Source: Gonapodya prolifera JEL478
Taxonomy: Eukaryota > Monoblepharomycota > Monoblepharidomycetes > Monoblepharidales > Gonapodyaceae
DNA length: 47,886 nt
Direction of reading: 5' to 3'
Assembly: GCA_001574975.1 (NCBI GenBank)
Contig: KQ965775.1
Location: 188,293 to 236,178 of the forward strand
Shown here: in pieces, positions 42,484-47,886 of the stretch
Layout: each line of letters begins with the position of its first letter
Position numbering within the stretch: the stretch's first letter is position 1
The notes under the pieces: generated by a model
The model's input: only the letters and a program-made list of their open reading frames with translations
The model's database searches: none
What the model was told of the DNA's origin: nothing
Translations under genes and position numbers: made by a program

Positions 42484-43546
42484 TCAAAGAATTTGCGACC
42501 GCTTGGTGATACATGGTGGCACCCACTTGACACTCTTTGGAGTCGCCGAAAAGTTGGGATTTGCGTTCCCATCTTTGGCGGTCAATAGCACGTTGCCGGT
42601 GCAACCCCAGTCTTGGTAAGACGAGTGAAACATAAGCGCACACGTCAAGCAGACGAATATTGTTGGCCTACCGCTGTAGAAGGTCGCAGTGGCACCACTG
42701 GTAAGTTTGAACGATCCAGAAGGATTGTCAAATCCGCTGTGTGATCACGCGAACGGTTAGGATGCACTTCATACATGCCGCGTTTCTGTACTCACAAGCA
42801 GCCCGCGTTACCGCCAGTCTGGCTCGACCACCCTCCAAAGTTGGCAAGAGAGAAGAGCTGCACTCCTGGAGTGTAGCCGAGGTTTACGGTCTGAAGAGAC
42901 GGAAGGAGATAAGCAACCAGCCACCAGTCACCAGGAATAGTTCAATGCAGCGGTTTGCTCACGGTTGATGTAGCGCCTAAGTTCAAACTAAAAGCAAACC
43001 CATCGTACGGTCATCCCACAGCGGTTTCGTGAACGTCATTGCACGGTCTCACCGAACACTGAGGGGCTTCGCCGAAAACTGCGTAGCTGGACTGTCGGTG
43101 CTCGAAACACCAAGGTCAGAACCTTGGCAGCCCCAGTCTATCGGAGGGAGACGGTGAGATCAGGTAGCTTTTGCAGGGTCGCCGACATCGCCTCCACGAA
43201 CCGCTATAGAACCGCGCCGATGTCGATGGAGAGAGCTTGTACGACTGGACGTCAACGCCTATGCCGCTAGTGTGTCCCGAAAAAGTCTTGGAAAGGTCTC
43301 ATTCTGCGTGGAGCTCTTCTGACTCACAAGCAGTCACCGTCAGTCCCGCCCGTTTGCGCGGACGTCCCGCTGTAGTTGGCGCCGTCCCAGTATATGATTG
43401 CAGGAGTGTATCCAAGGTTTGCGGTCTGTGGATTGGGTCGCGGTGAGCATCGCCAAGTCCAAGCGTTTGAGAGAGCGACACCTCACCTGAGCGAATCCTC
43501 TGGTGGCGAGAACGCCAACTACGAGAAAGCAAGCAAGAGCAGCCAT
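42484..43546 (-). CDS. Secreted two-module beta/gamma-crystallin-like protein
   Basis: Eight exons in order: 43487-43546, 43328-43425, 43202-43266, 43053-43137, 42963-42987, 42796-42890, 42672-42736, 42484-42611. They give 206 residues. Exon 1 is a signal peptide (MAALACFLVVGVLATRGFAQ). Module 1 has NLGYTPAIIYWDGANYSGTS, SYKLSPSTSARFYSG and DWGCQGSDLG. Module 2 has NLGYTPGVQLFSLANFGGWS, SFKLTSGATATFYSG and DWGCTGN. The spacing W-x4-Y-S-G and F-x4-F-G-G fits the crystallin Greek-key motif [YFW]-x4-[YFW]-x-G. Exons of the modules match in size and phase (98/65/85+25 versus 95/65/128), showing exon-level duplication. Role unknown; a calcium-stabilised wall, spore or antimicrobial surface protein is conceivable. 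Fold assignment rests on the motif only. Confidence 0.7.
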
Positions 43547-43849
43547 TTTTGTTGTCAGTAACTCAGACTTGAGATGCCGAAGGTAACGTTCTGTGAAGAT
43601 TTTTCTGTAAACTTGGCAAAATCCGCCCCCTCAGGATGTTCCTTTTGTCAGGAGGCACAACCCCCCAAACATAGCCAGAAACTCAGCCATGATGTGATTC
43701 ATCTCACTGACACAGCCAGTAATTTTCAACACTGTTCGTTAATAATCTGAAAGTATATTAGATACACTGCTACGACATTAGATTTTTACCACATCTTCCC
43801 CCAAAGTCTCATGTGAATCTGTGCGACGGGAAGTTATTATAACTCTGCA

Positions 43850-44919
43850 AATGAGACACATCAAGATAGCTTACTTCACACCTTTCGGCTGCTCCTGAGA
43901 CTTGGGGTCCTTGTTCCCTTGAGACGTGGTTAGAAGTTTCGTTCCTTTGCAACCTAGTCTTGATGGACATGAAGCGTTGAATTGGGGTTATGAACGGATC
44001 AAAAGTTGTTGGCCAGTTACATACCACTATAAAAGGTTGCTTTTGCGCCTTTTGTAAGCCGGAAAGACCCTGTGGTTTTCAAAGCCATTGAGTTCGTGCC
44101 GTTTGTTGGGAGGGTTGTTTATCAAAGTACACATGAAACACGATCGCACTTACAAACACCCAAACGACCTCCGGTCTGGCTGCTCCATCCTCCGAAATAT
44201 GGAAGAGAATATAGATGCACCCCAGGAGAGTAACCGTAACCGTCTAAGTGTGAGATTGAGTCAGTAATGAAATTCGACACGCCAGAGAACCAGCTTTTGT
44301 ACTTGCCGTTGTAAAGGCCGTCTCCCGAGCCGCGCGCGTTAATCTGCGGGCAGTTGAGTAGAGAGTCTGTTTTGTTTTGTTTTGTTTTGCTCTTGCGGCA
44401 AGAAATTCTCACCCTCATTCACTCACCGAACGCTGTATACTTCTTGTCACACCGTGCATTGGTTTGATCTTTGGAGGCATATCCGAGATCAGAGCCCTGG
44501 CAGCCCCAGTCTGGTGCACGAAACAAGAATATTTCTTGAATATATCATCGAATCACACCCTGGAGATTCCACCAACCACTATAGAAGCGTGCCGAAGATG
44601 ATGGAGAGAGCTTGAACGATTTCAACTCGATGCCGATCCCGCTATGTCCCAATTTTGAGCAAAACTGCACCGTTCTCAAGGTGGCCTGATTACTCACTAG
44701 CAACCGCCGTCCACTCCACCAGTCTGCGCCGATGTGCCAACATAATTGGGTTACGTGTAGTAGATAATCGCTGGAGAGTAATTGAGGTTTGTGGATTGTT
44801 CAAGTCGGGTGAGTAAAGTCGTTGCTTCGTTATACGTGACTCCACACCTGTACCAGAGCAGCGCCGGAGAGAACCACAACAGCCAGGCAGGCGGCAGCTG
44901 CGAATGTCAGTGCGCGCAT
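43850..44919 (-). pseudogene. Decayed paralog of the crystallin-like gene
   Basis: Same exon plan as its neighbour. The signal-peptide exon (44848-44919) is intact: MRALTFAAAACLAVVVLSGA. Exon 2 has lost its acceptor AG (CCACAAACC where the live copy has CCACAGACC) and carries an in-frame TAA after AIIYYT. Exons 3 and 4 are preserved (SFKLSPSSSARFYSG, DWGCQGSDLGYAS), but exon 4 ends one base out of phase. Exon 6 keeps YSPGVHLYSLPYFGGWSSQT. Exon 7 is frameshifted, and exon 8 has TAG in place of the TGG of DWGC. A (TTTTG)4 run lies in an intron near 44370. Multiple independent lesions make this a dead gene. Confidence 0.75.
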
Positions 44920-45370
44920 CGAGAGCTCAATTCCTCGGAGCTCGGTCTGAATTTATTGAATCTGAGGGAGGCTCTGCAAGTGCAGGCGGGCAAAAGCTTC
45001 TCCCGAAACCGATGGAACAACCCTGCTTGGGTGATACCGTGTTCGGAGCAGACGTTGGTTGATTACAATTTGGCTCCATCGCGGCAAAGACTTCGTCTTC
45101 TCAGGGGATCACCGCACGAATTCAATTCGGCTCCCATTTGGCCGATGCCAATGATCCACAGCTTGGCCCAGGCGAAAGGGTTCGAGCCAACGATGAAACA
45201 GAGAATTAATGCGGGAATTTCACCCAAGGTGAGTGTTCACGTGCTTTTGTAGCTGAAATGGCCCGACCAACATTACCCACTGCGAAGATGCCTCAGGTTC
45301 TGCATACGCCAAGTCCCGCCAAAAGCATTGACGGAAGCAGTGGAAGCCCCGCTAGAAACGAAATTCTGCG

Positions 45371-47886
45371 ATGGTGTATTGGCGATCGTCGCCGATCATA
45401 GCATGGCTTGCGATTCAGCTATGGATGAGAAGCTGTGCCGGCATCGAGACTTTGATCTTCTATCAACCTTACATATCAACAATGGATCCTGCCTTTCAAT
45501 TATCTTCACTGTATACAGCGGCAGTGGAATTTAATTCGACGTTCGCTGGTGTATGGGGTGTGGATGTCAGATACGTGGGTTGGGGAGAACTACTGGGCTT
45601 AATTGCGGGCGATAGCACCAAAGATCCTCCGGTGAGTGTAGCTGCTGAAGGCGTAGCATGAAAAGGGATACGTGCTTCCTCATAGATTCGTCTCTTCCTG
45701 TCCCCCCCTGCTCCGACACACTTAGGACCTGGTTGTTGTTGGCACCAGCTGGGTTGGCACTCTCGTTAAATCAAAAAAGCTATATCCCATCACAAAGCTT
45801 ATGGATGAGTGGAAGACTGAGCGTCCGGATGGGGACATTACAGCTGACATATTGAGATCTGCACAGTGGGTTTGCCTGCGAATAGTCACCAAAAAAAGCC
45901 TGAAGCCCAACGAACATCGATTCAATAGAGCTGATTATAATATTCTGAACGAGTGGTGGGTCCTCCCCTATGAGATGGATGTTCGGGTCTTTGCATACCG
46001 TGAGTTGAGACAAAATCTCTCGCAAATTAACGAGACTTAAATCTCCTTGAACATAAGGCGTGGACCTTTACAAGCGTTACTTGAACAAGACGAACCCCCC
46101 AGATACTTGGTACGAGATGGTTGACAATTCATTGAAAATTCAACAAGCAGCCCTTGCGGAGGGGAAGTCCATATGGGGCTACATTCCATCATACGATCCA
46201 ACTCAGCTGATATCACAGCAAAGTTTTGTCCGTGAGTGCTCCTTCTTGTCGTGTGGTGATGCGGCGCAGTAGTAACAGTTTGGTCGGTTGTCCTGGGAAT
46301 CTCGTGAAGAGTTCTATCTCAGTTGGTGAGTGATAAGTATCCAATTTGCGCTAGATGACACTAACTCAGGAGTTGGCACGCCTCCAGGGGTGCCTCGCTC
46401 GTGGATGCAAACTACCAATGTGGTTTAGCCTCGGACAATTTTCGCGCCGCGACCAAATTCTTGACCGATTTATACTTGAACTCGACATCCAGAACTAACC
46501 CCTTTCCTGACAGCACTGTTTATGGCTCAAAGGGCTATGATACCTTATTCTCGGATGGATCTCTTGTTCATATGTCACACGGTGTCTGGTCACGTGCTTT
46601 TGATCAGTCCAATTCTTCCATCGTCCAATATGATGTGAGCCTTGTGAGAAGCATTGGCCACATTGAAGACGCTAACAGACTTGATTAGTGTGGATTTGAT
46701 TTTTCAAGAACGACATTCAATGAAAGCAAAATGCATGTTGCGTTTGCAAAGATTCCACGAGGTCCACGAGGACGGTTCATTTTTGGTAGGCACATGCCCG
46801 ACTTGCTTTGGATCGTCTGAAATCCCAAGGATCATACCACTATCAGCTGGGGGGAGCGGTGTTGGAATCTCCGCACAATCCAAGAACAAGAGAACCGCCT
46901 TCGAATTCATGAAAATATTTCTTGACCCGTCCAAAATTCACCAACAAAATGCCGTTCGCGCAAGGAAGTTGATCAGCCCTTACAGTTCACTCCAGGTGGG
47001 TGCATGCCTTGTCAGCTCTCCTCTGTTTTCTTGTGCTAAATCACTGTGTGTGCCATCAGTACTTGCAAGATTCATCCATAAAATCTATCAGTGGGAGGAT
47101 GTGCAATGTGCCGTACTCATATTCTCAAATATTTCCCCAGCCATCTTTTTACGAGAGTAAGTCACCCCAGACAATCAAATTTTTGGTCAAATAAGCTGAC
47201 TTTTGCTTGGAGCAAGTGGGCGAGGTGGAGCGACAATTAATTATTCCTCAGATGATTGGTGAAGTCGTACAAGGAAATCTCACTGTTGCCGCTGCCACAG
47301 AGAAAGCTTGTCGCAGAATGGACAGCATTATCTTCCCCCCGCCATCTGCCATGTCTTTCAAGAGCCTTACTGGCGCAGTCACTTTTGCCGCGATATCAGC
47401 AACTGAAATCGGCTGTCTGGCAGTAATAGCGGCCCTGTGGCTTTACCGCTTACACTCATCCATCTTACACCCTTTGACAAGTACTGTCAAAATTATTGGG
47501 TGTATGGTGATTTTATCTTCTCAATACGCTGCCATGTTTGCTGTGGATCAAACGACCTGTGCGATTCCCGGCATCCTTCTTTTTGTGGGAATCGGTCTTG
47601 TTGCTGGGGTGATAATCATGCGGTTGTTTGCAATATACAAGGTTTTTGTGGTTGAGAGTGCGGGAGCAGCTATTCTACTTTACAAACTCCGTCTCGTGGC
47701 CTTGCTACCTTTGCTTGGAGAAGTGGTGAGATTTAATGCCATTCTTTTGTCTTTGATAATGACAAAGGCAATGCCTTCATACCAAACTCTTGGTCAGATC
47801 TTACTAGCAGCCTGGCTTATCTTCGATCCACCATCACTAGTGAAAGTCACGCTGTCAGACCAAACACGGCAGCAACTCTGTGGTAC
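45371..47886 (+). CDS. SBP-7TM receptor: solute-binding ectodomain plus class C-like heptahelical domain (partial)
   Basis: Starts with a signal peptide (SSPIIAWLAIQLWMRSCAG). Probable exons: 45371-45631, 45726-45865, 45929-45999, 46058-46227, 46279-46325, 46388-46634, 46689-46785, 46847-46995, 47060-47156, 47217 onward, with an optional in-frame intron 47726-47797. Residues ~25-425 resemble a bacterial sugar-type solute-binding protein: DLVVVGTSWVGTL, YNILNEWWVLPYEMDVRVFA, YRVDLYKRYLNKTNPPDTWYE-type region, and GGSGVGISAQSKNKRTAFEF. A stalk follows, then helices at ~480-503, 518-535 and 542-572 with class C hallmarks: LYRLHSSILHPLTSTVKIIG in loop 1, the TM3 Cys in TCAIPGILLFVGIGLV, and AWLIFDPPS after TM4. 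The exon 4-5 junction uses a poor donor (GTCCGT); GTGAGT four bases on breaks phase. TM5-TM7 and the C-tail lie beyond the window. Confidence 0.7.

Follow-up and report, generated by a model that had tools for sequence, protein, structure and literature searches.

The gene that begins at position 45371 and runs to the end of the window (the whole stretch of 47,886 nucleotides analyzed here, G000:C45:188293-236178) raises the question of whether a solute-binding protein (SBP) domain of bacterial type has truly been fused to the membrane region of a class C receptor, and what the product might sense. A first-pass annotation had read the gene as continuous from a signal peptide through an SBP fold into a heptahelical region. 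We are all but certain that an SBP-type domain and a class C membrane region are fused in one gene. Judged from its sequence, the product is probably a GABA-B-like class C GPCR whose Venus-flytrap is a solute-binding domain of bacterial type, namely type II (SBP_bac_1).

Gene model of the receptor

From the ATG at 45371 the gene could be followed on the plus strand, in consistent phase, up to the last base of the window over at least 11 exons. When spliced it comprises 616 codons with no stops, and all ten introns are of the GT..AG type. Beyond 47886 the rest of the 9.9 kb piece examined (about 7.3 kb) consists of N, and because this N adjoins the window end, the 3' end of the gene cannot be completed. 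The features of the gene are as follows.

45371..45631, plus strand: exon 1, with the start codon, the signal-like N-terminus (residues 1-24) and the SBP start; also present in the C132 copy
45726..45865, plus strand: exon 2, 140 bases, SBP domain; the C155 exon at the equivalent place is also 140 bases
45866..45928, plus strand: in-frame intron, 63 bases, GT..AG, without a stop; emerged with C155 as query
45929..45999, plus strand: exon 3, 71 bases, SBP domain; its C155 counterpart is also 71 bases
46058..46231, plus strand: exon 4, SBP domain
46310..46325, plus strand: exon 5, a micro-exon of 16 bases that the C155 query recovered; in C155 this stretch lies inside one uninterrupted exon
46388..46634, plus strand: exon 6, SBP domain
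46689..46785, plus strand: exon 7, SBP domain
46847..46995, plus strand: exon 8, SBP domain
47060..47156, plus strand: exon 9, SBP domain
47217..47725, plus strand: exon 10, one open exon with the SBP C-terminal end, a short linker, TM1-TM3 and the first half of TM4
47375..47863, plus strand: region matched by the class C profile 7tm_3, covering residues 471-609 and positions 8-152 of the 251 in the profile, with the intron 47726-47797 inside it
47726..47797, plus strand: in-frame intron, 72 bases, inside TM4
47798..47886, plus strand: exon 11, cut at the window end, with the second half of TM4, the DPP motif and extracellular loop 2 with Cys 615

Relatives on other contigs of the genome (C132, C155 and so on; the window lies on C45) were modeled by a home-made spliced aligner with the window protein as query, and the window was then remodeled with the C155 relative. 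This second pass returned identical inner exon boundaries over a span of 45431-47884 (from C155 residue 21), a test of the gene model that is not fully independent because C155 had itself been modeled with the window protein. Three places in the model were doubtful: the micro-exon and the two in-frame introns. C155 has an open exon in the regions of the micro-exon and of 47726, and an intron of its own between the 140- and 71-base exons in the 45866 region; at all three places the window protein matches C155 without a gap only once it is spliced. A gene model without the micro-exon in this form contains 13 stops, and with it none. Removal of the intron at 45866-45928 raised the local score against C155 from 1667 to 1698 and improved the SBP_bac_1 E value from 1e-16 to 8.9e-18. 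With the intron at 47726-47797 retained, which the first-pass annotation had listed as optional, 7tm_3 scored 12.9 bits (E 0.088); its removal brought the score up to 29.3 bits (E 8.4e-7) and left an alignment free of gaps with C155, which has no intron there. This intron is therefore supported. With both in-frame introns removed, the local score against C155 rose from 1634 to 1698.

On the minus strand upstream of the receptor gene, at about 43116-43562 and 44545-44926, are mutually similar open reading frame stretches (..KLSPS.SARFYSG..) that are possibly a tandem pair of genes for small secreted proteins diverging from the receptor gene. A Pfam scan of two ORF pieces upstream of the receptor gene found no families.

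The solute-binding domain and its candidate ligands

The N-terminus of the receptor protein is signal-like by hydropathy, with a hydrophobic stretch at residues 7-25. In a profile scan of the spliced protein, SBP_bac_1 matched residues 64-363 at 8.9e-18 (65.7 bits vs. a cut-off of 26) and SBP_bac_8 matched at 1.2e-16 (61.8 bits vs. 27), as expected if the SBP fold recognized at first sight is correct. The ectodomain had also been described as SBP-type rather than of the ANF type typical of animal class C receptors, in agreement with the lack of any match to ANF_receptor (type I) in the receptor protein at E values up to 10. A profile scan of the protein likewise found no match to the nine-cysteine domain (NCD3G).

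A single-sequence search of the PDB with the receptor protein returned 22 distinct sequences at E values up to 10, namely 18 solute-binding proteins and four GPR156 entries. The best match was 1eu8, a trehalose/maltose-binding protein (1.5e-8), and the SBP end encoded by exon 10 aligns to its C-terminal part. An SBP profile built from three sequences found five PDB sequences at E values up to 1e-6, the best being 5ci5 (1.4e-17) and 1eu8 (7.1e-17). Among bacterial relatives, a tblastn search of plasmids yielded a single record, a Halomicrobium sugar ABC transporter binding protein that aligns to 71% of the query at 21.3% identity, and a contig scan with the three-row SBP alignment gave 72 pattern matches of which none was confirmed (two short patterns, hence weak evidence).

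SBP_bac_1 and SBP_bac_8 are broad families. The suggestion that the domain binds a sugar or another small solute holds as a fair guess at the ligand class, because 7 of the 18 solute-binding PDB entries name sugar, maltose or trehalose and none names another ligand. A more specific assignment fares less well. The residues of 1eu8 presumed to contact sugar are the Asp that follows LPYEM, a Tyr two positions ahead of that Asp, and the Asp of the DVFLMD strand. In alignments with 1eu8 read by eye, the first of these is kept in the window protein (D151) and the other two are replaced; the ligand may therefore be something other than trehalose or maltose. From these comparisons we would put the chance that the ligand is a sugar at about even. 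A receptor for some other solute, such as an amino acid derivative, a peptide, an osmolyte or a metal chelate, would account for the partial replacement of the presumed contact residues and would accommodate the 11 of 18 PDB entries that state no ligand; it is a possible but rather doubtful reading, as every entry that does state a ligand points to a sugar.

The class C membrane region and its relatives

At 29.4 bits, the match of the receptor protein to 7tm_3 (8e-7) falls short of the cut-off of 33.5; the cut in the gene falls at position 152 of the 251-position profile. Alignment with relatives places four helices within the window, followed by N. Thus, the continuous gene, the signal-like N-terminus and the SBP domain of the first-pass annotation stand, but the heptahelical region extends in the window to four helices and not seven. 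The hydropathy profile has five peaks after residue 470, of which the one at 554-572 is taken as the probable end of TM3 plus loop and not as a separate helix. The class C hallmarks named in the annotation are all present: the TM3 Cys is C532, the loop-1 turn YRLHSSILHPLTSTVKIIG begins at residue 494 and WLIFDPP occupies residues 593-599. The TM3 Cys and the loop-2 Cys, which is C615 here, pair in class C receptors; both of these and the WxxxDPP motif are invariant in all four aligned sequences. A 7TM profile built from four sequences found 49 PDB sequences at E values up to 0.01, the best being GABA-B subunit 2 (4.3e-14), followed by GABA-B1 and mGlu receptors. The four GPR156 entries in the single-sequence search matched the membrane part at E values of 0.003-0.006. 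For the exon 10 product on its own, structure prediction gave a poor model (mean pLDDT 59.2, pTM 0.32).

We considered whether the membrane part might not signal through G proteins at all, and might instead anchor the binding domain at the cell surface for holding sugar or for adhesion. Animal class C receptors have a Lys at a TM3 position where the window receptor has Arg (MRLF), and the relatives C18 and C81 have Lys there as well. Seppala 2016 also proposes that surface carbohydrate-binding domains of gut fungi may both sense and sequester sugars (PMC5168858). However, a mere anchor has no need of the conservation seen in the two cysteines and the WxxxDPP motif of all four sequences, and the 7TM profile retains a GABA-B match of 4e-14, so that we judge the anchor improbable and prefer to view the membrane region as that of a receptor.

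Searching the genome (47.6 Mb, 207 contigs) with the window protein gave 33 matching pieces on eight contigs: C45 (the receptor gene itself), C132, C155, C81, C18, C97, C3 and C25. With the C18 model as query, 43 pieces came up on seven contigs, all of them already among these eight. Both C155 and C18 are modeled from the start codon through TM7, and the 7TM region of each has seven hydropathy peaks; the C155 model has an eighth, weak peak in its tail, the end of which was set arbitrarily. C81 was modeled from the equivalent of C18 residue 174 onward, and the search with the C18 model shows earlier pieces. 7tm_3 was over its cut-off in all three relatives scanned (C155, 2.6e-25; C18, 3.1e-35; C81, 7.6e-34), and SBP_bac_1 in one of the three (C155, 5.5e-17). 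C81 scored 20.3 bits for SBP_bac_1, under the cut-off of 26, and a profile scan of the C18 model found no SBP_bac_1 match at E values up to 1; the C18 ectodomain is 40% identical to that of the window receptor.

Searched with 7tm_3, the genome gave at least five places, four over the cut-off, a count that is a lower bound because the search missed the window's own gene. Whole-genome searches with SBP_bac_1 and ANF_receptor at E values up to 1, and with SBP_bac_8 at E values up to 0.1, gave no matches; these zeros are uninformative as to absence, since the two SBP searches missed the window's own intron-split domain. A further class C-like gene, C47 (G000:C47:301500-310000), scores 32.4 bits with 7tm_3, just under the cut-off of 33.5, and an ORF upstream matches the last third of Peripla_BP_6, a type I flytrap, at 3.9e-8 (33.8 bits vs. 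31.7). The genome probably combines class C helices with either type of flytrap, type II in the window gene and type I in C47.

The C132 copy shares 413 of 427 residues with the window gene before its sequence gives way to N. The shared block corresponds to window positions 43651-47247 (3.6 kb, 91.7% identical), that is, the first nine exons and 1.7 kb upstream, and because it includes the upstream sequence, C132 may represent the alternative haplotype or else a duplicate of recent origin. Divergence along the block is uneven (1505 of 1700 upstream positions identical, 242 of 261 in exon 1 and 95.6 to 100% in the later coding exons), which could reflect gene conversion. In the 10 kb examined on C97, only two stretches match, of 117 and 111 bases, which flank a 313-base N gap (locus G000:C97:20500-25500); they are 96.6 and 97.3% identical to the window, the first is 100% identical to C132, and the 10 kb held no further match to the last 13.9 kb of the window. 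These stretches may be an assembly or scaffolding artefact.

Two other relatives, C3 (G000:C3:778500-783200) and C25 (G000:C25:38500-42500), look broken or partial, since the C3 model has stops inside it and C25 has the N-terminal part only. With such relatives in the genome and the window gene itself cut by a gap, a decaying copy had to be considered for the window gene as well. Its 616 codons without a stop argue against decay, as does the comparison with C132, which covers the binding domain only: over 426 codons there are 36 coding differences, 23 synonymous and 13 nonsynonymous, for a dN/dS of 0.152 (bootstrap 0.068-0.294). The binding domain is under purifying selection, and we hold a pseudogene to be very unlikely.

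The fusion is independent of any splice because the exon at 47217-47725 alone carries the SBP end and TM1 to mid-TM4, and in the spliced models of C155, C18 and C81 the SBP end and the start of the membrane region lie on one exon as well. We therefore rejected, as scarcely credible, the reading in which two neighboring genes, one for a secreted binding protein and one for a membrane protein, were wrongly joined, since one exon in one open frame holds both domains.

Proposed function and known counterparts

The product is very probably a sensing receptor, judged from its domains, and most likely one for a sugar or another small solute that acts through G proteins. In class C receptors the flytrap shuts on a small ligand and the motion is passed to the helices, mostly in dimers. 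The window receptor would reach the cell surface by way of its signal peptide, where the two-lobed domain would close on a small solute, a mono- or oligosaccharide most likely. The closing motion would reach the helices via a short linker that lacks the nine-cysteine domain, probably in a dimer, and the helices would then activate a heterotrimeric G protein, whose signal might report food, or a surface suitable for settlement, to the cell. The genome contains 22 pieces matching G-alpha on several contigs (1 of 14 prokaryote controls matched, under the cut-off). Chitin synthase matched nine pieces, eight of them over the cut-off, and a radial-spoke protein matched eight pieces, with none of 14 prokaryote controls matching in either case; these matches fit a flagellate (zoosporic) fungus, the kind of organism initially proposed.

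The first-pass annotation had mentioned related fusions in early fungi, and the literature bears this out. Krishnan 2012 (PMC3251606) lists 96 fungal class C receptors from four species; most carry ANF_receptor and others LysR_substrate, OpuAC or PBP_like_2, and eight Allomyces macrogynus receptors carry SBP_bac_1, the same Pfam domain in a different genome; their likeness to the window receptor is one of description. Seppala 2016 (PMC5168858) reports about 100 class C receptors of anaerobic gut fungi (51+24+32 = 107, Table 2), of which almost half have a type II SBP of sugar type, and states that an ANF ectodomain is not a defining feature of them. These share with the window receptor the type II SBP and class C 7TM region without ANF and without the nine-cysteine domain, again a likeness of description. 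GABA-B receptors are described in the same paper as having no nine-cysteine domain (PMC5168858). GABA-B subunits 1 and 2 and GPR156 are the closest solved structures to the 7TM region, and they and the window receptor both lack that domain; however, the GABA-B flytrap is of type I (ANF), whereas that of the window receptor is a type II SBP. The same solute-binding family, by sequence, includes 1eu8, which differs in part of its presumed binding residues and which is part of a transporter and not a receptor. Class C receptors of Mucoromycotina, likewise early-fungal, are candidate trisporic acid receptors and cluster with animal GABA receptors according to PMC5705715; their proposed ligand is a pheromone. 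The window gene is thus a new case of an architecture already in print, and its novelty is lowered by the fusions reported in PMC3251606 and PMC5168858. Among the literature matches listed, which cover few subscription journals, we recognized none that names a ligand for an SBP-bearing class C receptor of a fungus.

Chemotaxis mechanisms in aquatic chytrids are poorly understood, according to PMC12115818. A speculative and rather unlikely extension of the receptor reading is that the gene belongs to a small GABA-B-like lineage in a flagellate fungus that captured a bacterial sugar-binding flytrap and steers zoospores, or their settlement, to food sugars, beside a probable receptor with a type I flytrap (C47). 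Between them, the window gene and C47 suggest that a single fungus can join class C helices to flytraps of type II and of type I, and receptors with a soluble, expressible binding domain of sugar type make the question of the ligand directly testable.
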